A stretch of 27,798 nucleotides of DNA from a virus. Under the pieces are notes generated by a model. That model saw nothing but the letters and a program-made list of their open reading frames with translations. It ran no database searches and was not told the origin of the DNA. The stretch covers positions 1 through 27,798 of IMG/VR virus record IMGVR_UViG_3300031673_000374, one strand, 5' to 3'. A program made the translations under genes and the position numbers. How positions within the stretch are numbered: position 1 is the stretch's first letter; the number at the start of each line of letters is the position of its first letter. Shown here one piece after another: positions 372 to 24,769 of this stretch.

Positions 372-1006
372 GACTTCGGAGGGAGCCCGCCGGGAGACAT
401 GCCGAACTGTCTACCAAAAGACTCAGCTCTGTTGCGATCGCGTGTCTTCATCGACATTCCACTAGGGCTCATCGAGTAAGCGGGCTGGTCAGGCTGGCCG
501 CCAGTGAACGCGGCCATGATCGCGCCCGGGCCCTTCTTGGCCTGTCCGAGATTGCGCTCCATCTCCGCCAGCATCTTGGCCGACTGGGTGGGCATCACCG
601 CTTTGCCTCCCGACAGTTCCATCGCGTTGTCGATGAACGACCCAGCTGTGATGGGATCACCGGCGGCAGTGGGGGACATTTTTCGAACGGAGTTGAACAT
701 CATCTGGACTTGGTCAGCCGGGCGCTTCGACAAGCCAGGTGTGGCCGACAGCATCGCTTTGTAGTCGCGCTGTTTGGAGAAGCGTCCACGAATAGCCTCG
801 ATGCCCTTGCCTATACCAACACCGGCAGCAGCAATGCCCGCACCTGCGAGTGCGGCAGGAAGCTGGTCACCCACCTGCTCGCCCATCCTTGCCAAAGCGC
901 TGCCCGCATCGCCCTTGAATGCCTTGGACAAGCTACTCCAGAAGCCTGCTTGCTTGCGCTGTTGGGCCTCTTTGATCAGCAGGAAGTCATCAATGGGATT
1001 AGCCAT
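368..1006 (-). CDS. Virion-type protein with KEA N-terminal signature and Gly/Ala membrane-like segment
   Basis: A 212-aa protein starting at ATG 1006 in a TAATG overlap with the gene before it. Residues 1-35 contain IKEA followed by an amphipathic stretch (FWSSLSKAFKG). Residues about 45-70 are a Gly/Ala-rich hydrophobic run (LPAALAGAGIAAAGVGIGKG) that could insert in a membrane. A helical domain follows, with motifs typical of proteins found beside capsid and tail genes of large phages (MSPTAAGDP-x-TAGSFIDNAMELSGG). The C-terminus is Met/Pro/Gly-rich and disordered. The mix of a KEA signature and a glycine-zipper segment recurs in the proteins at 10236-10556 and 20195-21064. I infer a minor virion or ejected protein; no enzymatic motif is visible. 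Confidence 0.7.
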   Translation of the reverse strand: MANPIDDFLLIKEAQQRKQAGFWSSLSKAFKGDAGSALARMGEQVGDQLPAALAGAGIAAAGVGIGKGIEAIRGRFSKQRDYKAMLSATPGLSKRPADQVQMMFNSVRKMSPTAAGDPITAGSFIDNAMELSGGKAVMPTQSAKMLAEMERNLGQAKKGPGAIMAAFTGGQPDQPAYSMSPSGMSMKTRDRNRAESFGRQFGMSPGGLPPKS

Positions 1007-1326
1007 TAGTAGTACCCGGCCTTCCGCATGTCACGCTTGGCTTTCATTTCCCGCAGCTTCCAGCGGAGCTTCTGGCCTGTCTGTGACTTGGCGGCGGCGA
1101 CACCGCCGCCCACAACAGCTGCATGTGGCGCGTACTTGATCAGCGCACCGACGCCTTTGTAGCCTTTGTCGCCCGCCTTCGCTCCCAGCTCGGCAGCCCC
1201 TTGGAAAATGGCCTTGGCGCCACCCTTCAGAGCACGACCAACCTCACTAACAGCGCCGCCGATCTTCTCCAGCTCCTCGCCTTCTCGAAGAAGAGAAAGC
1301 ATGCTGGTCAGCTGCTTGAAGTTCAT
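1006..1326 (-). CDS. Small Gly/Ala/Lys-rich virion-type protein
   Basis: A 106-aa protein that starts at ATG 1326 in an ATGA overlap with the upstream gene and ends in a TAATG overlap with the next, so it is fully embedded in a leftward operon. The N-terminal 20 residues look like a short amphipathic helix with an acidic patch (REGEELEKIGG). Residues 30-80 alternate Gly/Ala-rich segments (GGAKAIFQGAAELGAKAGDKG, VVGGGVAAAKS) with Lys, and the tail is strongly basic (KLRWKLREMKAKRDMRKAGYY). It resembles the other small Gly-rich proteins of this window and is probably a minor capsid, scaffold or injected component. No family was recognised. Confidence 0.7.
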   Translation of the reverse strand: MNFKQLTSMLSLLREGEELEKIGGAVSEVGRALKGGAKAIFQGAAELGAKAGDKGYKGVGALIKYAPHAAVVGGGVAAAKSQTGQKLRWKLREMKAKRDMRKAGYY

Positions 1327-2264
1327 GAGAGCGCTCCTCTCAGCTGCGCGCTGACCCCCTCGAGCTGCTCGTCCACGATCCTGACCGCCTCCTCGAGCTT
1401 GCTGTGCTCACAGGCGACCTTCGTGAAGGCGATGAAGCGTTCGACCACGGGGTGCTCGGGGTTAGGGATCTCCCCCACCTGCGCGGTCTTGACCAGCAGG
1501 TTCCCCAGCTCTGGTTGGGTCATTCCCTTGCTCCGGAGGTGGTTCCCGACCAGGACCATCGCCTCCTTCAGCAAGTTCGCGCTCGGCGTGTAGCTTGACC
1601 ACGCCCGAGCCAAATCCCCCAGTGAAGAGGACCCATGCAGAACTTCTTGGCCCGCCGTATCGCACAAGTCACCTCGTACGTCATCCAGGAGCACGCCCGA
1701 GCTGGAGAGCTTGCTCATGAAATGTTCGCGGGCGCCCTCCAGCCGGACCCGGAGATCGTTGACCTCTTCCACGCCATTGTAGCGCGCGAGGTGATCGGTG
1801 TTGGAGACAACCGAGGCAGCCTTCTCGAAATCCGTGACGCCGAACGCCTCCAGCAGCGCTGCTTCTCCAGCGCTGGCGAGCTTGTAGTTCTCGGAGGGCG
1901 GCTCGTAGTCGGAGGACTGAACCTGGTGCACGGCGGGGGTAGATCCGTCATTGAGTTCCCGGATGACCTCCCCCGGGTTGGCCGGGCCGCCCTCGAAGGT
2001 GACGTTGCGTACCTCGCCCGCCTTCTCGAAAGCCTCCATGAAGGCTGCCGTGTTGGTGAACTCCACTACACGCTTGATCTGCTCCGGTGCCAGGCGGAGA
2101 CCCGACTCCTTGATGACAGATGCAGCACTCTTGGTTAGCGCTTCCCCACACGAGCTGAAACGGGCCGCGGCCTTCTTCCCCAGCGCCTCTAGTTGCTCGG
2201 GGTCGATAGGTCGTGCGACGTTCTGTTGCATCAGGCCGATGGGAAGAGCTCCGGGATCACTCAT
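1323..2264 (-). CDS. Hypothetical virion-type protein, 313 aa
   Basis: ATG at 2264 is preferred over an in-frame GTG at 2270, because GAGGT sits 6 nt upstream of the ATG and would abut the GTG. It is the first gene of the left structural block, directly downstream of a good sigma70-like promoter (2287-2316). The protein is mostly helical and mildly acidic, with many short K-x-A motifs (LTKSAA, FEKAGE, YKLASAG, FEKAAS, LVKTAQ, LLKEAM). The same K-x-A texture is seen in the 673-aa and 466-aa proteins of this window. No catalytic motif, transmembrane segment or known fold was recognised. Its place ahead of a probable prohead protease suggests a capsid-assembly or virion role, by inference only. 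Confidence 0.7.
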   Translation of the reverse strand: MSDPGALPIGLMQQNVARPIDPEQLEALGKKAAARFSSCGEALTKSAASVIKESGLRLAPEQIKRVVEFTNTAAFMEAFEKAGEVRNVTFEGGPANPGEVIRELNDGSTPAVHQVQSSDYEPPSENYKLASAGEAALLEAFGVTDFEKAASVVSNTDHLARYNGVEEVNDLRVRLEGAREHFMSKLSSSGVLLDDVRGDLCDTAGQEVLHGSSSLGDLARAWSSYTPSANLLKEAMVLVGNHLRSKGMTQPELGNLLVKTAQVGEIPNPEHPVVERFIAFTKVACEHSKLEEAVRIVDEQLEGVSAQLRGALS

Positions 2265-2286
2265 AGTCACACCTCGGATTGGTCAA

Positions 2287-3442: not shown

Positions 3443-5278
3443 CTAACCGTGATACTGCGGACGGCCAGTATCCTTGATGGGCATGAGGATGTCGGGCCGC
3501 GGCCGCACAATCATCGAGGCCAGGAGACAGAGCAGGATGCTGTGGAACGAGTCGTCCGTCTTGCCTGGTGCCTTCTTGTACTCGGTCATCCGCAGACGTT
3601 CGTTGTACTCACTGAAGATGTTGAGAATGTCAGTGCCGTAGGGCTCAACAAAGTCGTTCCAGCAGGGCAGGTCGATGAGGCGCCGCTTGAGAGCGTTGAA
3701 CACGTCGGTCATCACCTCGGAACGGTGGCACATAAACCGGCGGAGGTTCTCCTCCCAGTACACCTTCTTCTTTTGCCTCGGGTTGTACTGGTACTTCATG
3801 ATCTTCTGCGGACCGTGGCGCCGCATCAGCGTGTCGTTCGGGTGGAAGCCGCCGCCGTAGTCCGTACCCACGACGATGGCACCGAGCTGCGAAATCATCT
3901 GGCTGATGATGTCGAGCTGGCGATCGGGCTCGAGGTCCGGCCCGGTGAATCGGTGGATGTAGAAGATGGTGAAGTTGCCCGTGCCGAGGTAGCCACCAAA
4001 AGTGATGACCGTGTAGCTCCGGCCGGACTCTCCCGTACCCCAGTCGATCCCCCCGAAGACCTGCCGACCTTGAACAAGCGTCCGTACTTCGTCGATGTCT
4101 TGCAGTCGGATGTGGGGCTGGCAGCATGCCTGAAGCTGTCCCCTGGTTAACGGCCGCACGCCCGAGTCGTACGACATGCCCAGCTTCTCGTTGAAGAACG
4201 ACGACCGGCTATACTGCTCCTGCGCCTCCAAGATCTCAGGCCAGTCCACCCACGGCACCATGATCTGTGGGATGCGATAGCCCTCAAAGGTGACGCGCTT
4301 CTCGTTGTCCGGCGTGCGGGGCTGTAGCGCTGCCCACTTGGCTTGAGGATGGCGCGCGTCGATGGTCCTCCGACATCGGTCGCAGATCAGCCCACTCTTG
4401 CCGATGTTGGACTCGTCCAACACGTTCCAGTGCCAGCTAGAAGGATCTTTCGGCGTGCCGTGTCTCTCACAGGGGACTACCCACTCGTTCTGAGTGGAGA
4501 ACTGGGACCAGTAATGCTCGATCGTGTTGTCTTCCGACTTCGGCGTGCCGGAGTAGAGGAACAACTTGAACTTCGAATGGAAGGCGCACTGCTCGATGAT
4601 CGGAATGTTGTCGACCAGGATGTCCTGGAGCTCGTCGATGCAGATGAGGTCAGCGGGGATGCCGCGGACACGGTCAGCCGTCAGGTAAGCGTAACGCAGC
4701 CTGATCTGTGAGAAGTTGATGAACTTCTTGAAGAAGACTGCCTGATTGATTTTGCTCGGGGTGTAGGCGCCCAGCAGCGGTGAGTTCTCTACGACATCCT
4801 TGATGCGATCGCCCGAGAAGACCTTCGCCTGCTCCGCTGAGGGTGCGACGAACAGCGACCGGAAGTTGCTGGTGAGTGCGGAGTAGCACAGCAGCCTGTT
4901 GCCGATCGTAGTGGACTTCTCCACCTGCCTACCGCACTTGAGCAGCACCTTGTCTGACGGCGTGTCGTAGATCCGCCGGAGGTATTCGCGCCCCGTGAAA
5001 TCGAAATCGGAGATGCGGCCAGCCTCCGGAATGCGGATGGCCGTCTCAGCAAATTCAGAGGGGGAGATGTTGTAGGTGGCGTGCTCGAGGGCGCCAAGGC
5101 CGGCGACGTCACCAGGCGTAGGGTCTGGAGGCTCCGCGTCGAACTCGAAGTCGAGCGGGTTGCCGTCGTCATCGTAGTCGAACCACGGCTCTTTGATGGC
5201 ACCATCGACTGACCACAAGAGAGGGATCGTCGCTGCAGTTTTGAGGACAGCTGCCTCTGATAATTGGATCGTCGACAC
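3443..5278 (-). CDS. terL: Terminase large subunit (packaging ATPase/nuclease)
   Basis: A 611-aa protein starting at GTG 5278, with AGGA about 8 nt upstream. The N-terminal ATPase shows a Walker A variant CGRQVEKST (residues 115-123, Lys121), Walker B LICIDE (211-216, Asp215/Glu216) and the coupling motif SGTPKSEDN (243-251). An inserted zinc-knuckle-like element follows (Cys270, His273, Cys299, Cys302), as known from GpA-type large terminases. The C-terminal RNase H-fold nuclease carries GGIDWGTG (Asp412), VVGTDYGGG (Asp473) and KTDDSFHS (Asp575/576), so all three metal-binding acidic positions are present. The motor docks on the portal, pumps DNA into the prohead and cuts the concatemer. 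No small terminase was identified; the two hypothetical genes immediately upstream are candidates by position. The 232-bp upstream gap is unusually long for this genome and holds a candidate RNA. Confidence 0.95.
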   Translation of the reverse strand: MSTIQLSEAAVLKTAATIPLLWSVDGAIKEPWFDYDDDGNPLDFEFDAEPPDPTPGDVAGLGALEHATYNISPSEFAETAIRIPEAGRISDFDFTGREYLRRIYDTPSDKVLLKCGRQVEKSTTIGNRLLCYSALTSNFRSLFVAPSAEQAKVFSGDRIKDVVENSPLLGAYTPSKINQAVFFKKFINFSQIRLRYAYLTADRVRGIPADLICIDELQDILVDNIPIIEQCAFHSKFKLFLYSGTPKSEDNTIEHYWSQFSTQNEWVVPCERHGTPKDPSSWHWNVLDESNIGKSGLICDRCRRTIDARHPQAKWAALQPRTPDNEKRVTFEGYRIPQIMVPWVDWPEILEAQEQYSRSSFFNEKLGMSYDSGVRPLTRGQLQACCQPHIRLQDIDEVRTLVQGRQVFGGIDWGTGESGRSYTVITFGGYLGTGNFTIFYIHRFTGPDLEPDRQLDIISQMISQLGAIVVGTDYGGGFHPNDTLMRRHGPQKIMKYQYNPRQKKKVYWEENLRRFMCHRSEVMTDVFNALKRRLIDLPCWNDFVEPYGTDILNIFSEYNERLRMTEYKKAPGKTDDSFHSILLCLLASMIVRPRPDILMPIKDTGRPQYHG

Positions 5279-5332
5279 TGATCTATCCTACCGCAAGACT
5301 TCCACACCACCAGGTATAAGAAAGATAGTCGG

Positions 5333-5356: not shown

Positions 5357-5373
5357 AGAAGCCAGCGTTGACT

Positions 5374-8951: not shown

Positions 8952-10235
8952 CTATGCAGTCTTGACCACTGTGCTTAGCATCGACTGCAGCGCAGGCGCC
9001 TGTACAGGCGGAAGCGTAGGCAGCGCAGGCGGCCCCGGCGCTGGATCTGGCAGCGCTTTGACTAGATGTGTGTGTGTTCCAAGCCACGCCACCAATTTTG
9101 CCCCAAGAACCGCAGGTTCAACAGCCCCTGGTCCACCAAGAGCCAAAGAAGCAGCGCCAATGACCTTAGCACCTGACCAGGTCTCCGTGCTGCTTACCCC
9201 TTTGAGGGCGTGCGTGGTCTTGAGCACGGTGTCTTGGCTCAAGGCCGTCACCGATTGCGCGCCAGTGATGGCGACAGTCTGCGCGCCTTTGATCGTAAGG
9301 CTGTGGTCCCCGTCGATCTCTTCCGTACGCTTCAGCGCTTGCATGACGAACGTATTGCCCGCTTTGTCCAGCCGGATCACGTACTTGGGCTTGCCGGAGA
9401 CCTTGCCGTCCGACGGATCTATGCTCTGCGGTGCGATGGTCAGCTCTAAGAACGTCTTGTCTCCGCCGGGCGGCTTGGTGGCGTCGTCCAGCGAGCCGAG
9501 GCTGACCTTGATCGATGCGTTCTTGTCCTGAGCAAACTCTCGAGCGATGAGGACGAACTCGCTAGGCGCGTTGCCGGCGGGGTCGTTCTCCACCCGCTGC
9601 ACACCCCAGCTCAGAGAGCCTGCGGCAGTGTTCAGCTCGTAATTCTCGCAGAAGTCCCGGATAACATTGAGCAGCGGGATGTACGCGCGCTGACAGATGT
9701 GGGTCGAGCCCAGCTGCAGCACGCCGCCGCGGCGCAAGGCCACGAAGTTGTCGTCACGCCCCTGCCACAGCATGTCACCAGGGTTGAGGACGGGACGGCC
9801 CGCACGGAAGCTGGCGTCCGAGGTATTCCCTCCCGTGTTGGTGGAGCCTCCAGCTGATGTGCCCTTAGCCTGGGGGACATCTTCCTCAGTCTCGACACCA
9901 GGATCTTCGAGCACTGAGGTGAGGTCCTTGCCGAACGCCGCGCCCTCAAGTTCCGGTGCGCTGAGGAAGCCAAGCACGAACGGAGAATCCTCATCCGAAG
10001 GGAAACACACGACGCAGATAGCCCCGACCTCTGGCACGCAGGTGAAGCCCTCTCCGTTGTTGTAGTGGAGATAAGGCGTCATGATCTGCAGGTCCGGGAT
10101 CTGCTTGCCGGTGTACTGGGATACCCAGTCGACCGTCAGGTTCCGGACGTTGACATTCGCTATCGTCCCCGACTCGATCTGTGCTTCATCAATATCAGAG
10201 GACGGGAGCGAGTTGTCAAAGGAGGTCTCAGGCAT
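8952..10235 (-). CDS. Baseplate spike protein (gp5/gpV/VgrG-type OB fold)
   Basis: A 427-aa protein starting at ATG 10235 immediately after the TAG of the previous gene. Residues about 20-95 match the OB-fold of contractile-tail spikes, with the hallmark VPEVGAICVVCFPSDEDSPFVLGFL (67-91 region: P-x-V-G, then a strand, acidic turn and V-x-G). Residues 100-150 are a Gly/Ser/Thr linker. From about 290 to 365 short repetitive strands (SLTIKGAQTVAITGAQSVTA) suggest an intertwined beta-helix shaft. The C-terminus has the TH-T-H motif and a Pro-rich tail as in gpV-type spikes, where His residues bind a metal at the tip. Trimeric spikes of this kind sit under the baseplate and pierce the outer membrane. 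This is the main evidence for a contractile tail. No lysozyme domain is present, unlike T4 gp5. Confidence 0.85.
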   Translation of the reverse strand: MPETSFDNSLPSSDIDEAQIESGTIANVNVRNLTVDWVSQYTGKQIPDLQIMTPYLHYNNGEGFTCVPEVGAICVVCFPSDEDSPFVLGFLSAPELEGAAFGKDLTSVLEDPGVETEEDVPQAKGTSAGGSTNTGGNTSDASFRAGRPVLNPGDMLWQGRDDNFVALRRGGVLQLGSTHICQRAYIPLLNVIRDFCENYELNTAAGSLSWGVQRVENDPAGNAPSEFVLIAREFAQDKNASIKVSLGSLDDATKPPGGDKTFLELTIAPQSIDPSDGKVSGKPKYVIRLDKAGNTFVMQALKRTEEIDGDHSLTIKGAQTVAITGAQSVTALSQDTVLKTTHALKGVSSTETWSGAKVIGAASLALGGPGAVEPAVLGAKLVAWLGTHTHLVKALPDPAPGPPALPTLPPVQAPALQSMLSTVVKTA

Positions 10236-10556
10236 CTACCGGTAGCCCTGCTGCTGCCGCTGGCGCCCGCCGCCGAGCGCTTTGTACCCGCCGTAAGCAG
10301 CTAGGCCGCCTACGCCAGTAGCAGCTGCCATCGAGCCGTAGCCGGACTTTCCGAGCGCCTTCAGGCCGCCCTTCTGCCACAGTCCCTTAATGGCGCCGCC
10401 GTGCCGCTTCAGCGCGGTCCCCGCTCCAACGCGGCGCGCACCCGAAACAGCACTGCCAAGGCCCTTGAAACCCTTCGCCAAGAAGGAACCCACGCCAGCC
10501 TCCTTCTGGATCTCGGCGACTTCCTCGGCAAAGGCGCGCAGCATCTGCTCAGTCAT
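10236..10556 (-). CDS. Small Gly-rich virion-type protein with KEAGVGS signature
   Basis: A 106-aa protein starting at ATG 10556 in a TGATG overlap with the end of the RNA polymerase gene; GAGGAG inside the polymerase C-terminus is its ribosome binding site, so synthesis of the two is linked. Residues 1-20 form an acidic amphipathic helix ending in IQKEAGVGSFLAKGFKG, the signature shared with the protein at 20195-21064. The rest is basic and Gly-rich with a terminal glycine-zipper segment (AAATGVGGLAAYGGYKALGGG) and a QRQQQGYR tail. It has the look of a membrane-active or DNA-packing virion component. Being wedged between polymerase and spike, it may help package or deliver the polymerase; that is inference. 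Confidence 0.7.
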   Translation of the reverse strand: MTEQMLRAFAEEVAEIQKEAGVGSFLAKGFKGLGSAVSGARRVGAGTALKRHGGAIKGLWQKGGLKALGKSGYGSMAAATGVGGLAAYGGYKALGGGRQRQQQGYR

Positions 10557-13500
10557 CAGTACTCTCCTCTTTTCGTGCCCTTGCCTATCTCCGGCCCGAA
10601 GACCACTGGAGGTATCGGGTGCTTACCATGCAGCTTGCTGGTCCACCCCTGCTGAGAAGCACTCACGACCGTGTCCTTGAGTCGTTCGTGGTTCAGCCGA
10701 GCCATCCAGTCCTCCTGCATGTCCAGCGGCAACATATCGACACCCTTCAAAATAGGGCGATGTCGGATCGGCTGCCGGCCTTTGACGGCGTGCCGGTTCA
10801 GGTTAGCAACCCTGGACGTTGGTGCATAGTCACCACGAATGAAATCCTTGTGCCCACCAGGGTCTTCGATCTTGGTCAGGTTGGTCAAGGCTTTCACAAC
10901 CATTTCGGTATTCCGGCGCCGGATGCCGTGCGGACCGTAGATCTTGTGCAGCTCCCCCGACAAGTACCCCTGCACCGGCTCTACCCCTGTGAGGGGGAGC
11001 ATCTCATGGGGATTCACAGGACCGAGCGAGAGCGCGGAGCCTTTGCGTACCTGCATCCCACTCCTGAGCTGCTTGCCCCCGTACATAGGGACGCCCCGAG
11101 CTCTCGGAATGTAGTGCCGCTTGCCCCCCACAAACACGTTGTAACCGCCGGCCGGATCTTGCTGGACCTTGTCGACCTTCCCAGCCATCGTGCTGAGCGT
11201 TGCTGAACCCGGAAGCGTAGTTGGGAAGAGGGTCAGATCTTTGACGCGCTGGAACTCGTCAACGATATCCTCCTTCGATGCCGCGGTGCCGCCCGTGTGA
11301 AAAGCTTTCATCGCCAGCTGTGTGGAGCGTTCGCCCAGGGCCTGGCCAGCCAGGATGCCGACGTTGAGCCCCACCTCTGGCGGCTGGCCGTCTTCCGTCA
11401 AGCCGTAGCACTTCTGACAGACGCCCGGGCCATGCTGACAACGGAGCGGGGAGCGAACCAGCACGCGCCCCACCTTGTTGTTGCGCAGCGAGCTCCGGAT
11501 CTCGGGAGTTACCAACGTGCCGGCCTTGAACAGCTTGCGGCCAGACTTCTGGTCCGTCGCTAGGTGGCGGTCGAGGATGTCCTTCTCGTCCGTAGAAAGG
11601 GCGATGCCCTTGTCCGTCCCACAATCCTGGTCGACGATCGAGTTGTCCATCACCGAGTTCATCACGCGCTTGGATACCCAGCCAGGCTCTGACACCTGCT
11701 GCACCTTCTGGATGATTCCTTTGCGCGCCCCGGACATGTTAGTCCAGTAGTCCGCCACGTCCAGCCCTTCAGCAAACGAGCGCTTCACTGGCTGAGGGAT
11801 GGTCTCGCCCTTGGCGTTGGTGATCAGCATGGGAGCCATCTTGATCTGACGGAGAGCGTCCCGGCCTGGTTTGATACCAGATCGGTGCATCTTCAGCAGG
11901 GCGCTGTCCTTCTCCGGCAGCTCATCCAGTCTGCGGTGCATCTCATCGGTCGCCTTGGCGTAGATCTGAACTGCCTTGGCGTCCTTCTGCGCCTGCGTGC
12001 CTGTCAGCTTTGCGACTGCGCGGTCGGCTGGCGCCATCACCGAATCCCTCATGGCCTTTTCCGGCTTGATGTCCTCCAGCCCGATCGAGAAGGCGGTGTC
12101 GGTGCCCCAATGGTTACCAAGGTCTTTCAGCTTGTTGATCGACTCGCCGTAGTCGTTGCGGTGATCCTTCGCCAGCGCAGTCAGCACCTCGTTCTGACCA
12201 GCCTTGTCCATGGCCCCCTTGCGCTTGAGGAAACCCTTACGCATGGGCTCCGGCAGCGCCCCGGCCACCATGAACCGGCCTGTCGTAGAGCTCAATCCAC
12301 CAACCCTGATCTGGTCAGTGAGCCCTATCTCGCCCTTGCGGGAGGCGCTCTCCACCTCCTTCATGGTCTTGAAAGTCTTGCTGGTCTTCTTCCCTACCTG
12401 CGTGATTCCGTACAGACCCAGCTGCGACTCTAGCGTTGGCTTGTACATCAGGTCGCCAGTCGAGGGACTGAAGAGGTTGCGCGACGGGTGCATCTTGCGC
12501 GCCTCCTCCACGGCCGCCGAGCTGATGGGGACGAATGCTCCCATCGTGTCGCCATCGAAGTCCGCGTTGAAGCCCGAGGTGACCAGTGGGTGGATCTGCA
12601 CCGCCTTGCCCTGGATAATCCGAGGGGTGAACGCTTGCACGTTGTACTTGTGCAGCGCTGGGTCGCGCTTCATCAACAGCGGACGCTCGGACACCACGCG
12701 ATCGAGCGCCCGAGCCACCATCGGGCCGCCGTCCTTGATCATCTGCTGCGCCTGCAACGGCGTAGCACCAGTGAGGTTTCGCAGTTCCCGAACCACGAAT
12801 GGCTTGTATACCTCGGTAGCCGCAGCGCGCGGGAGCCCCACTTCATCAAGACCCAACGAAGGATCGGGGACGATGGTCGACCGCATCGAGAGATCTTGCT
12901 TGCGCTTAACCAGCTTATTCTGGAAGAACCCCTCCTTGGGGGAACCGACTTTCCTACCTGTCTTCCCAGGCTCAGGACGCTTGCCGCTGATGATGTCGAT
13001 GACGCCGCGAAACTCCTTGTTCATGTGGCCGCCGAGCCCTGTCAGCGATCGCAGGCCGTCGTAGACCTCGGCGCGGACCTCGTTCTTCTCCTCGTCCGGG
13101 GCCAGCGGGTTGAAGTTCTTGAGCTGCTTGGCTGACAGGGAGATGCCCTTGTACATGTGGTTGAGGTCGTCAACGTTCAGGTCGCCGTTGGGCAGCTGAG
13201 ACACGGGGCGCATGGACGGCGGCAGAATCGGGACGTTCTGCATCATGTACGCGTCCTTGGCCGACAGCCCCGCATTGTCGAGCGCGCGCAGATACTTGAC
13301 CTTCTTGTTGGCCTGGTCCAGCCGGTTGCCCTTGAGTTTCGGATTCTTCAGCGCCGTGTGGGCTGCCGCGAGCTCCGTCTTGACGTCGATCTTCCCCAGC
13401 ATCGTGCTGAACGCCTTGCCCCCAACGATCCCATTCTCCACGTCGGTGGTGACCTTGCCCGTCTTGGGGTCGATAGCCTTCCGGCCAGCGATAATATCGT

Positions 13501-16500
13501 TGAACTGCGTGCCCGTCACACCCGTCAGTGCTTGAATCGATTTCTCGAAGACGGGGTTGGGGAAGGCCTCAGGCAGCCGCATGTGGCTCCACTTGGTCCC
13601 TTCAACACCTCCCGTCACGGTGGGGTCGAACAGCCCTCCCTTTTCGGCCTTGAGGTCCTTAGCTCGGACCATCTTGCCGCCATCCTTGATCGCCCCGTTG
13701 CTCATCTCCTTCACCTGTGAGTCGGTGAAGGGCACGAGCTGCAGATTGTTGCCTTCCTTCTTGACGTTGACTCCCACGCCATTGAGGTAGCTGGTGAACT
13801 TCTTGTAAGCGAATGTCGGCCGCGGCGCGGGGAGAGTCTCGCCGGCCTGCAGCGCTGCCCAGAACTCATCGTTCTGTCCGGCGTCGCTCTTCAGCGTCTG
13901 CATCTCACGGAGGTTCTCCGTCGCTCCGTGGGCCAGCATAGAATACAACCCCAGGGTACCCAGTGCCTGCGCACCATGAGGGCCACCACCCTTGGGAATC
14001 AGATTGCGATCGTACGCATAGCCGGGGCCGCCGGCGCGAGCTCGCGCCTTCGTCTCAACCTGTTGCTTGAGCTTGAGGATGTGTTGAGGGCCCACCAGCG
14101 CCATGCCCATGGCGCGCCCCGTCTCCGGGTCGAAGACCTCTTCCTTGTCGGTGAGGCCATGAGACTTCAGGTCAGCCGTCACCTGAGCATGCAGGTCCGT
14201 GTTGGGCTGGAAGTTCTTAATATTGTATGGCTTGCCTGTCTTCTCTGCGATCTTGCCAGCCGCAGTCTCAAGCACCTGGCCCAGGTTCACGCGGCCAGGG
14301 ACGCCCGTGGGGTTCAACAAGATGTGCAGCGGGTTGCCGTCCTTGGTATGCGGCATCTCCGAGTCCGGGATGATCTTCGTGATGATCCCCTTGTTCCCGT
14401 GACGCCCCGCAATCTTGTCTCCGATCTCCGCAGCCTTGAGGGTCCTGACGTGGACCGCTGTCTTCTTGCCGCGCTTGACCACCTCTTCGACTACGCCAGG
14501 GTGGTCGGCCTCCCACTTCACGCTCGCGTCAGCGTAGGGCTTGACCAACGACTTGTGCATCTTGGAGAGCTCCATGTCCTCCGCACGGTCGGTCTTCTCT
14601 CGCAGGGCAGCGATCAACGTGTCCCCCGGCATCACCAACTGCCCATGCTTCATCACGCCATCGTCATCTAGCTTGTCGGCCTGCTCTTTCGAGAGCCCGT
14701 CGGGCGTGTACGCTTGGAACTTCTTCTTGTCGAGGATGTGGGTCTTGTCGCGCAGCAAGGTGTTGCGGTGCAGGTGTTCGCTGGAGAGCTTCTTCGATGC
14801 GCTCTCGCTGATCACCACACCGTCCTCAAAGTTGTAGCCCTTGTAGGGCATGTACCCAGTGCGCAGGTTGGTGCCCAGTGCCAGAATCCCGTCCTTCGTG
14901 AAGTTGGTGTCGGCTAGGGTCTGGCCCTTCTTCACCTTGTCGCCGACCTTCACCAGCGCCGTAGAGTGGATGAACCCCTTGTCCGCGTTGAGCGGGAAGT
15001 TGTCGTAGAGCTGGACCTCGCTCTTTTTGCCCTTGGAGTCTTTAACGATCACCCCATCCTTATTGACCGCCACGACCTCACCAGCAGTGTGCGCCCTGTG
15101 AGAAGCAAAACCACCGACGACATTTTCAAAGGTCTTGTTCCCTGCCAAGCTCTGGACTAGCGGCGCCTCGCGGGCAGCGAGAGGGATCGCCTGCTCCATG
15201 TGGCGCCCGGCCATCGTGCTGCGGTTGGGGTGGTCTGCCGCCACGAATGGCACCAGGTTAGAGGCCATCGAGAACATCTGTATTGGATCGCGCATGACAT
15301 ACTGCGCATCCTTCAGAGTACCCTCCGTCATCTCGTTACCAGGAGCTGATAAACGGATCTTGCTCGAGGCTGCGACGGGTTTCCCTTTCTCCCACCGCAC
15401 CTGGTCAGGCAAAGCGAACGTCGAGTTCATCACCTTCTCGGGATTGATCTGCTCGTTCCTCCCCGTCTTGGTGTTGTACATCATGATCTTGACGTCGTGC
15501 CCGTCCTTCTTCACGCCAATCGGCAGGCGTAGAGAGACTCCCGTGCTCTTGCCTTCAGGCGTGTGGATCGGGTCGAGAAATCCCAGGTGCGACGGATCAA
15601 CCAGCTTGGCGTCTTCCGAGATGCCGTGCGCAGACTGGATGCCGCCCTTGCCTGTGATGGTCGTCTTCATCTGACCGCTGATCATCTCGAGCGGGTTGGT
15701 CTGGTCAGGGACGTTGGCCAAGGTGGTGCGGTACATCTCCCGTATCGGACGATTGAATGTGTCCGGACCGATGATCTCGCCCACCTTCGTCCGCCGGTCT
15801 AGCGTATTCTTCACGCGGCGGTGGATGTCCTTGCCACTATCCGCGATGCGCTCGGCGAAAAAGTCCTCCGCGCTGTGCAACTCCTTGAATGGCAGCGCGT
15901 CTCGAGAGTCCGGCTTTGCCTTGCCCTGAGAGATGTGGAGCAGCTTGGTAGCCCCATCCATCAGAGCATTGCCCGTGACGTTCTTGTGCCCGCGGCCCAG
16001 CGTGACCTTGGTAGTATCCTCCCGCAACTTGGAGCCGTTCATCGTGGTCCACAGATGCTCGCGCGCCGTCTCCAAGTCAGCCGGCTGCTCACCCGTCGAC
16101 GCCTTGTAGAACTTGCGCAGAGCCTTCTCGCTGTCCTGCGCGTTGGCTCCAGAGATTTGCTTGCCCCACTTCGCCTCGATCTCCTCTTGCCCCACACCCA
16201 GCTCGCGCATCAGCGGTTGCAGCGGGATGTTGGAGGTCCCGTAGTTCATCGAGAATTCACGGGACTTCGGGTCGAATCCTACCTTGAATCCGCGGCCCTC
16301 CTTCACGTTGTAGTCCGCGCTGAGCTCGCCGTTATCCTTGACCCGTGCGTAGACGCCCTGCTTCAGGCGCCACTGGTTGTCGATCTGGTACTCCTGCCCA
16401 TCGACGATGTGGGAGTAGCGGCGAGTGTGCTTGGGAAGACTGAGGAGCCGGAGGCTTTGCTGGTCGACGACCTTTCCGGAGGTGTTGTCCCTCAGCACAA

Positions 16501-16711
16501 CGTCAGCTTCGACCGGCACAGACCATGTGCGGTTGCCGAGTTTCGCCTTCTTCTGTGATCGGATGTCGTCAATGTGCAGGTCATCGTTGACCTGCACGCC
16601 CTTGAGTTCCAAGGTGTGCTTCTTCCCTACGATCGGGAAAATGCCATCGACTGTCTTAGCCACCCGGTCTTTTAGTACTTTGAACCCTTCCTCTGGAGAC
16701 AGGCGTGCCAT
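10556..16711 (-). CDS. Single-chain beta-beta' DNA-dependent RNA polymerase
   Basis: A 2051-aa protein from ATG 16711, chosen because it overlaps the stop of a 28-codon leader ORF (TGATG) and begins with MARLSPEEGF as the leader does; a GTG at 16732 is also open. Beta motifs come first: a lobe segment (QIDNQWRLKQGVY, about 109-121), the rif-region-like DPIHTPEG (380-387), GYNFED (625-630), GDKIAGRHGNKG (764-775) and LKSD (940-943). Beta' motifs follow: PILPPSMRP (1161-1169), the catalytic NADFDGD (1382-1388; Asp1384, 1386, 1388), GARKG (1661-1665), a zinc site (Cys1697, 1758, 1765, 1768) and QALGERSTQLAMKAFHTGG (1790-1808). The beta' N-terminal Cys4 zinc domain is absent. E. coli beta plus beta' total about 2750 residues, so this is a compact fusion. 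No alpha, omega or sigma gene is visible nearby. Location among virion genes suggests a packaged polymerase. Confidence 0.95.
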   Translation of the reverse strand: MARLSPEEGFKVLKDRVAKTVDGIFPIVGKKHTLELKGVQVNDDLHIDDIRSQKKAKLGNRTWSVPVEADVVLRDNTSGKVVDQQSLRLLSLPKHTRRYSHIVDGQEYQIDNQWRLKQGVYARVKDNGELSADYNVKEGRGFKVGFDPKSREFSMNYGTSNIPLQPLMRELGVGQEEIEAKWGKQISGANAQDSEKALRKFYKASTGEQPADLETAREHLWTTMNGSKLREDTTKVTLGRGHKNVTGNALMDGATKLLHISQGKAKPDSRDALPFKELHSAEDFFAERIADSGKDIHRRVKNTLDRRTKVGEIIGPDTFNRPIREMYRTTLANVPDQTNPLEMISGQMKTTITGKGGIQSAHGISEDAKLVDPSHLGFLDPIHTPEGKSTGVSLRLPIGVKKDGHDVKIMMYNTKTGRNEQINPEKVMNSTFALPDQVRWEKGKPVAASSKIRLSAPGNEMTEGTLKDAQYVMRDPIQMFSMASNLVPFVAADHPNRSTMAGRHMEQAIPLAAREAPLVQSLAGNKTFENVVGGFASHRAHTAGEVVAVNKDGVIVKDSKGKKSEVQLYDNFPLNADKGFIHSTALVKVGDKVKKGQTLADTNFTKDGILALGTNLRTGYMPYKGYNFEDGVVISESASKKLSSEHLHRNTLLRDKTHILDKKKFQAYTPDGLSKEQADKLDDDGVMKHGQLVMPGDTLIAALREKTDRAEDMELSKMHKSLVKPYADASVKWEADHPGVVEEVVKRGKKTAVHVRTLKAAEIGDKIAGRHGNKGIITKIIPDSEMPHTKDGNPLHILLNPTGVPGRVNLGQVLETAAGKIAEKTGKPYNIKNFQPNTDLHAQVTADLKSHGLTDKEEVFDPETGRAMGMALVGPQHILKLKQQVETKARARAGGPGYAYDRNLIPKGGGPHGAQALGTLGLYSMLAHGATENLREMQTLKSDAGQNDEFWAALQAGETLPAPRPTFAYKKFTSYLNGVGVNVKKEGNNLQLVPFTDSQVKEMSNGAIKDGGKMVRAKDLKAEKGGLFDPTVTGGVEGTKWSHMRLPEAFPNPVFEKSIQALTGVTGTQFNDIIAGRKAIDPKTGKVTTDVENGIVGGKAFSTMLGKIDVKTELAAAHTALKNPKLKGNRLDQANKKVKYLRALDNAGLSAKDAYMMQNVPILPPSMRPVSQLPNGDLNVDDLNHMYKGISLSAKQLKNFNPLAPDEEKNEVRAEVYDGLRSLTGLGGHMNKEFRGVIDIISGKRPEPGKTGRKVGSPKEGFFQNKLVKRKQDLSMRSTIVPDPSLGLDEVGLPRAAATEVYKPFVVRELRNLTGATPLQAQQMIKDGGPMVARALDRVVSERPLLMKRDPALHKYNVQAFTPRIIQGKAVQIHPLVTSGFNADFDGDTMGAFVPISSAAVEEARKMHPSRNLFSPSTGDLMYKPTLESQLGLYGITQVGKKTSKTFKTMKEVESASRKGEIGLTDQIRVGGLSSTTGRFMVAGALPEPMRKGFLKRKGAMDKAGQNEVLTALAKDHRNDYGESINKLKDLGNHWGTDTAFSIGLEDIKPEKAMRDSVMAPADRAVAKLTGTQAQKDAKAVQIYAKATDEMHRRLDELPEKDSALLKMHRSGIKPGRDALRQIKMAPMLITNAKGETIPQPVKRSFAEGLDVADYWTNMSGARKGIIQKVQQVSEPGWVSKRVMNSVMDNSIVDQDCGTDKGIALSTDEKDILDRHLATDQKSGRKLFKAGTLVTPEIRSSLRNNKVGRVLVRSPLRCQHGPGVCQKCYGLTEDGQPPEVGLNVGILAGQALGERSTQLAMKAFHTGGTAASKEDIVDEFQRVKDLTLFPTTLPGSATLSTMAGKVDKVQQDPAGGYNVFVGGKRHYIPRARGVPMYGGKQLRSGMQVRKGSALSLGPVNPHEMLPLTGVEPVQGYLSGELHKIYGPHGIRRRNTEMVVKALTNLTKIEDPGGHKDFIRGDYAPTSRVANLNRHAVKGRQPIRHRPILKGVDMLPLDMQEDWMARLNHERLKDTVVSASQQGWTSKLHGKHPIPPVVFGPEIGKGTKRGEY

Positions 16712-16797
16712 CAGTTCACGTGCGTCCAGCACTCAGGCGCTTTTTCATTCCGATCATCGAGAGCATTAAAGCCCTCTTCCGGTGAAAGACGTGCCAT
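16711..16797 (-). CDS. 28-aa leader peptide duplicating the RNA polymerase N-terminus
   Basis: ATG 16797 has AGGAG 7 nt upstream (16809-16805), the best ribosome binding site in this leader. The peptide begins MARLSPEEGFNALDDR and ends at a TGA whose last base is the A of the polymerase ATG (TGATG). The polymerase begins MARLSPEEGFKVLKDR. The first ten residues are identical, yet codons 3-10 all differ at the third base (CGT/CGC, CTT/CTG, TCA/TCT, CCG/CCA, GAA/GAG, GAG/GAA, GGC/GGG, TTT/TTC). Identity continues at L13, D15, R16 and K19 and then stops. This looks like an old tandem duplication in which the peptide sequence, not the DNA, was kept. The likely role is translational coupling or reinitiation for the polymerase, or a copy of a functional N-terminal tag. 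Confidence 0.65.
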   Translation of the reverse strand: MARLSPEEGFNALDDRNEKAPECWTHVN

Positions 16798-16941
16798 TTA
16801 GCAGCTCCTATGTGCGTCCCCGTCAAGCTACCAGACTGGTGCTCTCACGAGCAACGTAAAAATTACACGCAGTTAGTTATAAGGAGGATGTAGGAGATAC
16901 TTCTGTCGCCTGCGATCAACCACCTATGTAAGGAGAGCAGC
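16798..16941. promoter_or_regulatory. Divergent regulatory region between polymerase and second plus-strand island
   Basis: The gap separates leftward and rightward genes. It holds the leader ribosome binding site (16805-16809, minus), a near-palindrome around ACCAG-A-CTGGT (16830-16840, extended imperfectly to 16826-16843), a small inverted repeat TGCTC-TCAC-GAGCA, and an AT-rich patch at about 16855-16883 ending in TATAAG (16878-16883). AGGAG for the plus-strand gene is at 16931-16935. No sigma70 pair with good spacing was found in either direction, unlike the other divergent gaps. A phage-specific promoter under operator control is therefore plausible. Confidence 0.4.
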
Positions 16942-17091
16942 ATGAGCAATTACTTCGGCCCAAAGGATCCTGACGAAGAGACGAACAGCAACGGGCAAGA
17001 TTCGACGAGAGATTTTGAAGAGGATGTCGACGACCAAATCAGCGGCGACAGCAACGACGACGACGGCAACGACGAAGGCAACGACGAGTAG
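16942..17091 (+). CDS. Small, very acidic protein, 49 aa
   Basis: ATG 16942 follows AGGAG with a 6-nt gap, a near-ideal ribosome binding site. After a short MSNYFGPKDP head, almost every residue is Asp, Glu, Asn, Gly or Ser, with runs such as FEEDVDDQ and NDDDGNDEGNDE and only two basic residues, Lys8 and Arg23. It should be disordered and strongly negative. Small acidic phage proteins sometimes mimic DNA to block host nucleases or nucleoid proteins, but that is only an analogy here. It is the first gene of the second plus-strand island and is coupled by a TAGTG overlap to the next small frame. Confidence 0.65.
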   Translation: MSNYFGPKDPDEETNSNGQDSTRDFEEDVDDQISGDSNDDDGNDEGNDE

Positions 17092-17210
17092 TGTTGATCC
17101 GGATCTTCATCCTTACCTTCCTTGGCACGCTCCTAACTGAGCTTGCGATGGAAGGCCACGCCCTCATGAGAGAGGCGCTGGCGGAAGAAGATCAAGACCG
17201 CCCGCGCTGA
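17091..17210 (+). CDS. Putative 39-aa single-pass membrane peptide
   Basis: GTG 17091 overlaps the previous stop by one base (TAGTG), so translation would be by coupling; no separate ribosome binding site is seen. Residues 1-20 (VLIRIFILTFLGTLLTELAM) form one hydrophobic helix long enough to span a membrane, followed by a charged tail (MREALAEEDQDRPR). The lack of internal stops, the coupling and the clean membrane-anchor design support it, but the frame is short and could be fortuitous. Possible roles include a small inner-membrane effector. Confidence 0.4.
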   Translation: MLIRIFILTFLGTLLTELAMEGHALMREALAEEDQDRPR

Positions 17211-17215
17211 GATAG

Positions 17216-17249
17216 CGGGACAAACCCGGAACTGCTTTCGGGTTACCGG
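17216..17249 (+). promoter_or_regulatory. Alternating CGGG/CCCG hairpin cluster before the zinc-protein gene
   Basis: CGGG (17216-17219), CCCG (17225-17228), CGGG (17239-17242) and CCGG (17246-17249) can pair in mutually exclusive ways; the longest is AACCCG with CGGGTT (6 bp, 10-nt loop). The following ATG (17254) has no Shine-Dalgarno sequence, so the structure may influence its translation. There is no T-run, so it is not a classical terminator. Confidence 0.3.
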
Positions 17250-17253
17250 CACA

Positions 17254-17679
17254 ATGAATGAACTACACCCAGAACTCCCGTGTTCATTCTGCGGGGAACC
17301 GTACGGCGAGGAGCGCGAGCTCGTCATCGTACAAGCAGGCGAGATGCAAATCGGTAGGAAATCCGGGCTGCCCGGATTCTACCCGAACGAAAAGGACCCA
17401 ACGACGAATTGGTTCCACCTCGACTGCTTCCTCAGCAGGATGGATTTCACACAGAGCGAGCCCACCTCGCTCGAGCAGTGCGCGCTATGTCACAGCAGCC
17501 TGCACAACACGAGGTGGGTTTTTCGTTTGCAAATAGGCTTGATCGATCTAAATCGGCTCACTTTTGAGCCGTACCAGAACGACAAGAACCTGGCCCTCCT
17601 CTGCACCGACTGTGCATTGGATGGCTTCGGAGAAGGAGACTTCGAGGAAGGAGAACTCCTCCTCGGAGTCGGAACCTAA
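17254..17679 (+). CDS. Two-zinc-site protein, 141 aa
   Basis: The start is taken at ATG 17254, although no Shine-Dalgarno is present. Two Cys/His clusters are visible: Cys10-x2-Cys13 with His55-x2-Cys58 (CSFCGEPYGEE ... WFHLDCF), and Cys76-x2-Cys79 with Cys117-x2-Cys120 (CALCHSSL ... LLCTDCALDG). The first cluster resembles treble-clef or PARP-type fingers in its C-x2-C, W-x-H-x2-C layout, and the second resembles the zinc frame of HNH-type proteins without the HNH catalytic residues. It probably binds DNA or a protein partner. The C-terminus is acidic (FGEGDFEEGELLL). No exact family was recognised; an accessory or transcription-related role is inferred from its place in the plus-strand island. 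Confidence 0.75.
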   Translation: MNELHPELPCSFCGEPYGEERELVIVQAGEMQIGRKSGLPGFYPNEKDPTTNWFHLDCFLSRMDFTQSEPTSLEQCALCHSSLHNTRWVFRLQIGLIDLNRLTFEPYQNDKNLALLCTDCALDGFGEGDFEEGELLLGVGT

Positions 17680-17693
17680 ACCAAGGAGGTTGA

Positions 17694-18158
17694 ATGGCCA
17701 AGCACGGGTACGGGGTAGAATTTATCGCCGTTCCCCATCTAGGCATCCACACACGAGAGGACCTCGACAAGTGCTGCCACTACGAGGTCCGAGAAAAGCT
17801 GAACACATTCTTATGGCTTCAGAGTGAGTACGACGTAGGCCCCGGCGCTCTCCTACAGCTGGTAGCGGTAAATCCAGACGGGGAGCGCCGGGGAATGGAG
17901 CACTACTTCCATTGCTATTGGCACTCAGTGGCGGCAGCACGAGAGATCATCGATCACTTTAATAATGCAAGGACCGGAGACTCCGAGCTTTGCATGGATG
18001 TCAGACAGTGGGAAAAGCGGAGGGAGACCTTTCGCGCGGGGGCGTTGGAGTTGTGGAAAAAGCACAGAGGACAAGCAAGGGAGACGCAATTGAAAGCAGA
18101 GGAAGGCTACAAACAACAAGAGGCGTACTACCGTCGCCTAAAGGAAAGGGGATGCTAA
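17694..18158 (+). CDS. Hypothetical protein with basic helical C-terminus, 154 aa
   Basis: ATG 17694 is preceded by AAGGAGG at ideal distance. Residues 1-100 form a mixed domain with several His, Cys and Trp residues (YFHCYWHSVAAAREIIDHF) but no complete metal-binding motif. Residues 105-154 form a long charged helix rich in Lys, Arg, Glu and Gln, likely a coiled coil or nucleic-acid-binding helix. It is the last gene of the island and overlaps the stop of the convergent portal gene by 4 nt, with no terminator between them, so transcripts from both sides should collide or form antisense RNA. Function unknown. Confidence 0.75.
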   Translation: MAKHGYGVEFIAVPHLGIHTREDLDKCCHYEVREKLNTFLWLQSEYDVGPGALLQLVAVNPDGERRGMEHYFHCYWHSVAAAREIIDHFNNARTGDSELCMDVRQWEKRRETFRAGALELWKKHRGQARETQLKAEEGYKQQEAYYRRLKERGC

Positions 18159-20191
18159 ACGAGCTGCGATTCGGGCCCTCGCCGCGCTGGTCTCTGCTCA
18201 GGCAGGGGCCGCGCGGCGGCGGTCGCAGCCTGCGTTGGTCCGCCGCTCCCACTCATCATTAGCCCCAACACCATGTCATGCAGCTCGGGTTGTTGGGTAC
18301 GGAGCTCGGCCAGAGCGCGCGGCTGAACAGATGGACTAAGCCCGCTGATCTTGTCCGCTAGCTTCCGCCCCATGAGCAATAGATCGACGTTGGCCCGACC
18401 TCCCAGCTGCTCACCGGTCGCGTTCAAAGGCACCGGCGATACCGAACGCATCGTCAGTGGAGATTGGATCTCCGGCGGTGGGCCGCTCGGCATCAACGAT
18501 GGGTTGCGTGGCGCTGGCCTCTGCTCGGGCGGCGTCGGGCCGGGCTGACCGCCCTGCTGCATCGCAGCCTGGTCGGACATCGCCTTGGTCTGCTGCTCAC
18601 CTTGGAAGGCAGCCTGGTCCTTGGCCATCTCGTTCTGCATGGCCATCGACTGCGCTTCCTGCTGCGCTTGGAGCTTCATCTGCCACTTCATCGAAGCTGC
18701 CTGCGTCTCGCCTTCGATCTCCGCCTGGAGCAAACGCTGCTTCTTCATCGCGCTGGCGCGGCGAGCTGACTCCCGCTCCATGATCTGGTCTTCCTTCGAC
18801 GAGTCGAAGTCAGCATCGGCCATCAGCGACTCGTCGGACAGCTTGCCAGCCTGGTTGAGCTGGAAGAGGTACGCCTTGCGTTGCAGGTCGTCCGCCATCT
18901 TGAATGGCTTGAACCTGGCCTTGATGGGAGACCACCCCAACCATGACGAGGTCCTGGTGATGACCCACTTGAGCATCGACAGGTGGTCCTGAAGGTAGCC
19001 CAAGAAGGTGTTCTCCAGCATGCGCAACGAGACGTTGCTGCCCGAGTAGGACAGCCCGCCGAAGATGAGCTCGACCGGGATCCCCATGCCCGCCACGATG
19101 TGCTCGGACCACACCCGGATCTCCTGGCTGAGCAGCAGTGCCCGGCCGTCGCCGCCGATGGTCTGGTGACCGATGGGCAGCGGGAGGATGGGGATGTAGT
19201 TGTTGTCCGCGCGCCAGCGCCGGATCTCCCCTGCAATCTGGTCTCTCCAGTCCTGCAAATTGACCGAGGTGTAGGGATCGGACGTCGCGCTACCGGCCTG
19301 CGGGAACAGCACACGCAGCGGCACGATATGCTCGAGCGCGATCGCCTCCTGCGCCTTGCGCAGAATCTGCAGGTAGAAGGTGTCCTTCAACACCGGGAGG
19401 ATCATCGGCGTGCCCCAGCCGCGGTCCTTACCGGCCAGCGTGGGGCGCTTGAAGTGGTAGATGTTGTCGCGGCTGAACACCACGGCCTTCTTCAGCCGAA
19501 GCGCATCGACGAACAGCTGAGGTACCGTCTCCACCGTCGACTTCTTGCCGATGATGATGTCGTTCCTGAGCTGCACAGGAATCTGGTAGTAGTAGGTGTA
19601 TTCACCGGTCAGGTCGTTGTACTGGACGTCGACGTCCTCGGGGTTCCATCGAAGCAGACGGATGCCCTTCGGCGCCTTGATGTAGTGATCGAATACCACG
19701 GACGGGCCGTGGTGCTCGCACTTCTCACAGATCTGGTAGAACTTGAAGTTCTGAAAGCGGTACGTCGACTCGCGCGCCGGCTTGGTGAAGCCGCAGTTGG
19801 CGCACTTCAACATCTTGATGAACGGGTAGAAGATGCTGACCAGGGCGTTGCCGTAGGTGTGATAGTCCAGCCCAACCTCGACCTGGAACGATCGGTAGCG
19901 CAGCTGCTCGAGTAGAAACTGCTGCCAGCGCCGCTTGTGCTCCGGCCGCTCGGTGTCGAAGATGACATCGGTGATCGGGTACTCCGACATCTTGAAGACG
20001 ACGGCGTTGATCAGTGGATTGACTAGGAAATAGTACCGGCACCACCGGAACATCTGCTTGACGGTGGCGGGCAGATAGGTGTGTGCGATATCGAAGAATG
20101 GACTGGGGTATTGCAGGCCATCCTGCCCGCCAGTTCTGCTGCGCGTCTTGGTGAACCTGGAGTCCCCCTGTGCTCCTCCTAAAGACGACAT
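18155..20191 (-). CDS. Portal protein with zinc-ribbon insertion
   Basis: A 678-aa protein starting at ATG 20191, with GGAG about 11 nt upstream. The core (50-430) has the order expected of portal proteins: helices, a beta-rich clip-like part, and late motifs such as IPVELIFGGLSYSGSNVSLRMLENTF (371-396 region), which resembles the conserved G-[IV]-P-x2-[LI]-[IL]-G-x-S...N segment of large-phage portals. A long Gln/Met/Ala-rich helix follows (about 470-550), then a Pro-rich C-terminal tail. Inserted near the N-terminus is a four-Cys zinc-ribbon-like module (Cys130, Cys133, Cys155, Cys158). The protein should form the dodecameric DNA channel at the capsid vertex that docks the terminase at 3443-5278. 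The terminase lies about 13 kb away, not adjacent. Confidence 0.85.
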   Translation of the reverse strand: MSSLGGAQGDSRFTKTRSRTGGQDGLQYPSPFFDIAHTYLPATVKQMFRWCRYYFLVNPLINAVVFKMSEYPITDVIFDTERPEHKRRWQQFLLEQLRYRSFQVEVGLDYHTYGNALVSIFYPFIKMLKCANCGFTKPARESTYRFQNFKFYQICEKCEHHGPSVVFDHYIKAPKGIRLLRWNPEDVDVQYNDLTGEYTYYYQIPVQLRNDIIIGKKSTVETVPQLFVDALRLKKAVVFSRDNIYHFKRPTLAGKDRGWGTPMILPVLKDTFYLQILRKAQEAIALEHIVPLRVLFPQAGSATSDPYTSVNLQDWRDQIAGEIRRWRADNNYIPILPLPIGHQTIGGDGRALLLSQEIRVWSEHIVAGMGIPVELIFGGLSYSGSNVSLRMLENTFLGYLQDHLSMLKWVITRTSSWLGWSPIKARFKPFKMADDLQRKAYLFQLNQAGKLSDESLMADADFDSSKEDQIMERESARRASAMKKQRLLQAEIEGETQAASMKWQMKLQAQQEAQSMAMQNEMAKDQAAFQGEQQTKAMSDQAAMQQGGQPGPTPPEQRPAPRNPSLMPSGPPPEIQSPLTMRSVSPVPLNATGEQLGGRANVDLLLMGRKLADKISGLSPSVQPRALAELRTQQPELHDMVLGLMMSGSGGPTQAATAAARPLPEQRPARRGPESQLV

Positions 20192-24656: not shown

Positions 24657-24730
24657 AGGGCTTACCGCCAGCGGCTAAGGTCCTCGAATTTGATCACTCA
24701 ACACCCACCTTCAACGATTACAAGCACTTG

Positions 24731-24759: not shown

Positions 24760-24769
24760 GGGAGGAGAG

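Follow-up and report, generated by a model that had tools for sequence, protein, structure and literature searches.

A fused bacterial-type RNA polymerase in a phage head gene block, with a candidate sigma-70-family partner and two-element promoter in its relatives

Introduction

Known virion RNA polymerases (RNAPs) are too diverged or too split for their relation to cellular enzymes to be studied easily. In crAss-like phages, gp66 of phi14:2 is reportedly a virion RNAP with beta and beta' in one chain, and we know of no sigma partner for the crAss-like enzyme. COG0085/COG0086 profiles miss this RNAP, whereas the polymerase of the DNA analyzed here (the window, a 27,798-base IMG/VR fragment) has strong Pfam matches. 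The crAss-like RNAP has also been cited as a fused protein (PMC7481178). RNAPs of the phiKZ/AR9 type resemble the window enzyme in being two-barrel polymerases without alpha or omega, and their virion form serves early genes, as is proposed below for the window; in contrast to its single ORF, their beta and beta' are spread over several strongly diverged polypeptides (PMC7598289, PMC13282480). The initiation factors of these phages have no sequence similarity to sigma (PMC7598289, PMC13282480). The virion RNAP of P23-45 is likewise a single chain encoded with structural genes, but it is a tape-measure fusion from a diverged clade and has no clamp, whereas the window enzyme is bacterial-like and unfused to any structural protein (PMC10770324). 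The mReC group (Weinheimer and Aylward 2020), also known from IMG/VR contigs, has an RNAP that is alignable to cellular beta/beta', separate from bacteria, and located beside structural genes; the publication describes beta and beta' subunits and is silent on fusion, sigma, and virion (PMC7481178). A Gp23-type capsid (PF07068) characterizes mReC, in contrast to 0 of 17 fused-RNAP contigs; the domain was found in all three split-RNAP phages searched (YerA41, Carin-5, and RHph_TM30), and the window itself contains no capsid gene. The named mReC contigs were not recovered in scans aimed at them.

Among cultured phages, homologous RNAPs (~31-33% identity to the window enzyme) with the same beta-beta' junction occur in Salmonella phage Arash (Gp206/Gp216, with the sigma factor Gp10) and in Vibrio phages D69, D181, and D148. 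The Arash/Vibrio group also shares the portal, the Gp220-222 order, and a Gp10-like sigma, with TerL homology shown for Arash, and the promoter word of Arash is the same as that of the window's family, with a variant in D69. In this group a second chain begins after the active-site part of beta', and some members have further breaks, whereas the window enzyme is one chain. The contrast that a preliminary description of the locus had drawn with known phage enzymes, as either split or strongly diverged, is corrected accordingly, with the cultured Arash and D69 groups already carrying this enzyme in split form. The open-licence literature searched yielded no account of a phage core that is fused, bacterial-like, and accompanied by a sigma-70-family factor and a promoter, though a search of this scope does not amount to proof of novelty.

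Results and Discussion

The polymerase chain

The features of the window are collected in Table 1. The RNAP ORF spans 2051 aa from an ATG at 16711, or 2058 aa from a GTG at 16732; the ATG is the more likely start, since relatives begin at the residue that it encodes. The preliminary description therefore had the correct extent and length, the gene lying on the minus strand; the plus-strand reading of the same interval is full of stops. Beta occupies approximately residues 1-980 and beta' the remainder, and the Pfam domains follow in the order Rpb2_3, Rpb2_6 (E 5e-61), Rpb1_1, Rpb1_2 (1.5e-24), Rpb1_3, and Rpb1_5 (9e-20), which bears out the reported succession of RpoB-like and RpoC-like motifs. 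The top PDB match by sequence is mycobacterial RpoC (E 3e-104), and identity to actinobacterial RpoB/RpoC is ~29-30%.

Table 1. Features of the window, in order of position.
Feature	Position	Strand	Evidence
Arash Gp222 (head maturation protease-like) homologue, partial	3..410	-	homology
Arash virion protein Gp221 homologue, N-terminal NPIDDFL tag	368..1006	-	homology
Arash virion protein Gp220 homologue	1323..2270	-	E 3.5e-7
Large terminase subunit (TerL), Arash Gp1 homologue	3443..5278	-	homology
Exact family promoter GGTATAAG, AA at -18/-17, predicted start 5327	5313..5320	+	motif match
Baseplate spike (gpV-like)	8952..10235	-	Pfam E 0.0014, below cut-off; conserved in 30 relatives
Gly-rich 106-aa ORF, translationally coupled to RNAP by TGATG	10236..10556	-	found in 6 relatives
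Fused beta-beta' RNA polymerase core	10556..16711	-	Pfam, PDB, alignments, 97 complete fused relatives
28-codon mini-ORF (MARLSPEEGFNALDD...) repeating RNAP N-terminus	16711..16797	-	sequence
Promoter-like GTTATAAG, AA at -18/-17, T/G at +6/+7, divergent from RNAP gene	16876..16883	+	34/52 loci
Small ORFs (49-aa acidic, 141-aa, 154-aa) between RNAP and portal	16942..18158	+	sequence
Portal protein, Arash Gp204 homologue	18155..20191	-	E 6e-118

Alignment to enterobacterial, actinobacterial, and Bacillus enzymes demonstrates that NADFDGD, GYNFEDG, GRHGNKG, the bridge helix, the trigger loop (QLAMKAFHTGG), the flap segment, the clamp-helix region, and the four zinc-2 cysteines are retained, and the basic beta residues and both barrels of a two-barrel RNAP are present (Pfam, alignments). 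The preliminary description had reported NADFDGD, the trigger loop, and the four-Cys zinc site as intact and the beta' N-terminal zinc-binding domain as missing; all of this holds, the domain being cleanly deleted at a beta-beta' junction without a linker. The rudder (the segment after the clamp helices) is shortened. Three residues of the rifampicin pocket are replaced (H526G, R529K, and S531T), and from these replacements the enzyme is predicted to be rifampicin-resistant. AlphaFold models of the two halves, a check that had been suggested, match RpoB (E 1e-55) and RpoC (E 1e-45); they are of medium confidence (pLDDT 67) and unreliable in domain arrangement, and served as fold support only. 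Judged from its motifs and alignments, the protein is a linkerless RpoB-RpoC fusion in one ORF and a two-barrel (multisubunit-type) RNAP with all catalytic motifs intact. In the RNAP of one relative (L029, on a 201.9-kb contig) the zinc-2 cysteines are all lost (three replaced and the fourth also gone), while NADFDGD is retained.

Family and phylogeny

The RNAP ORF is not a product of chance, since it has 34 close relatives in one scan and 442 in a broader scan, 80 of which were kept. Of 112 related IMG/VR loci, 97 encode complete beta and beta' as one ORF; among the remaining 15, 14 are contig-edge fragments and one (L128) is broken inside beta. The Arash enzyme consists of chains of 1526 and 607 aa, split after the active-site part of beta', and the first chain of D181 is interrupted by a homing-endonuclease region. 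The beta-beta' junction itself is fused in Arash, D69, D181, and D148, which places the fusion before these lineages separated and makes it, by this comparison of sequences, ancient. Large contigs contain one RNAP each, save for matches interrupted by inserts. Further rearrangements are seen in individual loci: the Arash-type contigs L228, L233, L236, and L243 have an additional break in the first chain, ahead of the active site, and large in-frame, intein-sized insertions recur at a few sites (e.g., beside NADFDGD) in RNAP ORFs of up to 3596 aa (L007, L011, L014, L015, L021, L022, L033, and L034).

A phylogeny, also suggested earlier as a check, was run with FastTree on concatenated alignments, with no archaeal outgroup and hence an open root, and covers the phage enzymes, sampled bacteria, and the split-RNAP phages Carin-5 and YerA41. 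It places the fused family with the Arash type, outside all sampled bacteria (support 1.0) and separate from Carin-5 and YerA41, and the phage enzymes form long separate branches. Fused rpoBC genes are known from Helicobacter and Wolbachia, and the gene could in principle be a recent capture of such a bacterial gene instead of an old phage enzyme, as the level of identity to actinobacterial RpoB/RpoC and the full set of catalytic motifs might suggest. This origin is nevertheless highly improbable: the 80 matches kept from genome_contigs are at most 31% identical, the phage enzymes branch outside all sampled bacteria, and the gene lies between portal and terminase in many contigs. Some records labeled as phage contain bacterial-looking cellular rpoB/rpoC genes (e.g., AGRM01000005, CAKLQH020000005).

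Neighborhood of the gene

The preliminary description of a bacterial-like, catalytically complete fused RNAP inside the virion block agrees with the location of the gene in the head/packaging block. The order of the portal, RNAP, Gp220, Gp221, and Gp222 homologues is identical in the window and in Arash, whose TerL proteins are homologous, and the relative G003 has this arrangement too, with a homologue of the Arash major capsid protein at its end; the RNAP therefore holds a conserved place inside the head module. The reported TGATG overlap with the Gly-rich ORF was correctly identified. At the other end of the gene, the TGA of the mini-ORF overlaps the RNAP ATG (TGATG), and a partial duplication and a leader peptide are candidate readings of this mini-ORF. 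The small plus-strand ORFs that follow are probably early genes driven from the promoter-like site at 16876. A direct repeat noted in 16400-18200 proved to be low-complexity coding sequence. Elsewhere in the window, 24728-27025 (+) encodes a helicase with an intein splicing domain and an HNH nuclease.

Evidence for presence in the virion

Mass spectrometry of Arash particles found Gp206 to be the most detected protein (3516 spectra, 128 unique peptides), with Gp216 at 1210/40, the portal at 877/32, the major capsid protein at 1333/30, and the sigma factor Gp10 at 467/24 (PMC10585845). Dividing the tabulated spectra by annotated lengths (our own calculation) gives near-equal values per residue of ~2.3 for Gp206, ~2.0 for Gp216, and ~2.0 for Gp10. 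In its accessible sections, the Arash paper does not describe the Gp206 chain as a beta-beta' fusion (PMC10585845). The preliminary description had proposed that the window RNAP is packaged, and the Arash homologue argues for this, although an identity of only ~33% counts against transfer of the virion evidence. The TGATG coupling and the neighboring spike, on which the proposal had been based, are weak by themselves; the conserved portal-RNAP position combined with the Arash mass spectrometry is the stronger evidence.

The Arash particle signal could also represent carry-over of a non-virion enzyme that transcribes middle or late genes, with early transcription performed by the host RNAP. The place of the gene among structural, presumably late, genes would fit such a role, and the particle list of 116 proteins includes clear cytoplasmic enzymes, and the authors allow for carry-over (PMC10585845). 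However, the primase and ligase in the same table are represented by 2 unique peptides each (the primase with many spectra), against 128 for Gp206, and the second Arash sigma, Gp196, is absent from it (PMC10585845). The C-terminal beta' chain and only one of the two sigmas are found at similar length-normalized amounts, only one RNAP was found per genome, and no promoter motif turned up other than the one on the non-structural strand, all of which make carry-over quite unlikely as the explanation. Delivery of the fused RNAP in the virion is the reading preferred here.

A sigma factor in the relatives

The preliminary description had noted that alpha and sigma genes are lacking nearby, which implied a sigma-free enzyme. 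Neither was found among the window proteins scanned, and the sigma profile built from the relatives has no match in the window; since the window is only a 27.8-kb fragment, the lack of a sigma nearby does not mean that there is no sigma. An alpha subunit (PF01000) was detected in 0 of 14 large genomes, with the control detected in 13 of 14. For sigma the implication is not supported: of the 25 fused-RNAP contigs that reach 79 kb or more, 18 encode an orthologue of Arash Gp10, as do all six Arash-type genomes, so the enzyme is probably not sigma-free, and the two-element promoter described below also speaks against it. The seven large contigs in which no Gp10-like sigma was found are incomplete, and three of them (G012, G007, and G028) do contain the promoter motif. 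Gp10-like proteins match Sigma70_r3 above the Pfam cut-off (E 6e-7, 9e-9) and region 2 partially, below the cut-off; their alignment demonstrates a FDPxxGxxLST...QNxARIPE motif (region 2.3-3.0-like), conserved in 23 sequences, and a C-terminal HTH-like segment. The sigma gene of G003 is preceded by genes homologous to those for Arash Gp6 and the virion hydrolase Gp8, the same arrangement as in Arash. From the co-occurrence of the two genes and the co-presence of their products in Arash particles, we infer that the Gp10-like protein is the sigma partner of the fused core. A different sigma-70 region 2 protein (E 1.2e-9) is encoded at 104954-105172 of G012 (locus L043), a fused-RNAP contig with no detected Gp10-like sigma.

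In three genomes the sigma-like protein and the Gp221-like head protein, otherwise dissimilar, have an N-terminal NPVxxFL peptide in common; the peptide was noted at window 368-1006 (-), at G003 5833-6546 and 88928-89698, and at G017 70684 and 163568. A first, looser pattern matched 1.4% versus a background of 0.8%. A narrower pattern, written after inspection of those matches, has 10 of its 17 matches in 2051 proteins within the first 30 residues (2.0 expected), and all ten belong to the sigma-like and Gp221-like families. The resemblance of NPVxxFL to a capsid-targeting peptide is suggestive only.

A two-element promoter

The word GGTATAAG was first seen to be over-represented upstream of genes in G026 and was then tested in other genomes, with exact, one-mismatch (with AA), and degenerate scoring variants, each with controls. 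The window's subclade and most Arash-type genomes are strongly enriched in the resulting promoter consensus, AA-N16-GGTATAAG-N5-TR. When intergenic 8-mer pairs were ranked in eight genomes (42-67% GC) with no word preselected, GGTATAAG ranked first or second in G026, G024, G017, G030, and G037. Observed counts compared with an order-2 expectation are 33/2.0 in G024, 17/0.4 in G026, 28/8.7 in G017, 18/3.8 in G030, 13/2.6 in G012, and 31/4.3 in Arash, and further Arash-type genomes (G040, G042, G043, and G044) contain 31-36 sites each, versus 1-9 for reversed-word controls. Arash has 22 sites at most 150 nt upstream of a gene (71%, versus 10% for random positions). Among 66 gene-upstream sites, A occupies positions -18/-17 of the motif in 85% and 80%, and T (65%) and a purine (96%) occupy +6/+7; the consensus thus has the form of an upstream element, a spacer, and a predicted pyrimidine/purine start.

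The middle bases vary by subclade. A degenerate form, AA-N16-GNNATAAG-N5-TR, is found in 22 of 25 genomes, with mostly zero matches to the reversed pattern. D69 is not enriched in GGTATAAG (9 sites versus 11.5 expected) but in its own variant, GTTATAAG; few exact sites occur in the subclades of G029 and G031-G033, and the enrichment is absent in unrelated split-RNAP phages. The sites are distributed unevenly between strands: 30 of 31 in Arash are on the non-structural-gene strand, and in other genomes 93 are opposite to the RNAP strand versus 24 on the same strand, a count that omits G030, Arash, and D69, whose RNAP was missed by the marker pattern. The window contains two sites (5313 and 16876), and a strong site divergently upstream of the RNAP gene, as at 16876, recurs in 34 of 52 loci, versus 0 of 52 for the same-strand control. 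The sigma and promoter of the relatives suggest that the particles of these phages contain a transcription apparatus of their own, which is taken into the cell.

The host core is the partner of many phage sigma factors, and the main rival to this reading is that a packaged phage sigma recruits the host core to GGTATAAG promoters, with the fused RNAP acting later or at other promoters; a non-virion enzyme with carry-over, as discussed above, comes next. Apart from the general habits of phage sigmas, recruitment of the host core would be in keeping with the resemblance of the GGTATAAG element to an extended -10 and with the second sigma gene (Gp196) in Arash. It is considered unlikely in view of the packaging of the phage core itself in Arash in amounts close to those of Gp10, the sigma-docking surfaces (flap and clamp-helix regions) kept in the fused core, and the presence of the same promoter word across phages of 42-67% GC whose hosts are probably different. 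The pairing of the Gp10-like sigma with the fused core at these promoters is accordingly the reading retained.

A putative small RNA beside TerL

At 5313-5510 (+), between TerL and the next gene and on the opposite strand, the promoter is followed by ~180 nt ending in a GC-rich hairpin (5490-5505), with features of a possible small RNA. Rfam has no match in the window. Of 82 sources with TerL (redundant loci counted), 45 have the promoter at this TerL-side position. Nineteen distinct putative RNAs were folded; their sequences diverge, and folding is good even when the 3' hairpin is left out (mean z -3.35, 14 of 19 below -2). The phage RNAP may also transcribe this structured RNA.

Conclusions

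It is quite probable that the fused core is made late and delivered in the virion, forming with sigma a holoenzyme for early transcription. A single-chain two-barrel core (beta plus beta' without the N-terminal zinc domain) would be made late from the head/packaging block. It would enter the particle together with a dedicated sigma-70-family factor, whose gene lies in another part of the genome, and both would reach the cell along with the DNA. The two-element promoter (an AA-rich element, 16 nt, G(G)TATAAG, and a start 6-7 nt on) would then be recognized by this holoenzyme, whose targets would be early and middle genes, for the most part on the strand opposite that of the structural genes. 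That these components amount to a self-contained virion-packaged system, with a one-chain bacterial-type core, its own sigma-70-family factor, and a dedicated early two-element promoter, is regarded as somewhat probable.

If true, this would be, to our knowledge, the first virion RNAP with a recognizable sigma-70 homologue, and the system would be conserved across hundreds of uncultured phages as well as cultured Salmonella and Vibrio phages. The changes in the rifampicin pocket predict a rifampicin-resistant early phase of infection, and the hypothesis is directly testable in Arash, a cultured phage with particle proteomics and the same promoter word. A bacterial-like chain of ~2050 residues with a sigma and a promoter would provide a tractable minimal RNAP of the cellular type, lacking alpha and the beta' zinc domain, as well as a tractable model for the host-independent start of phage infection.
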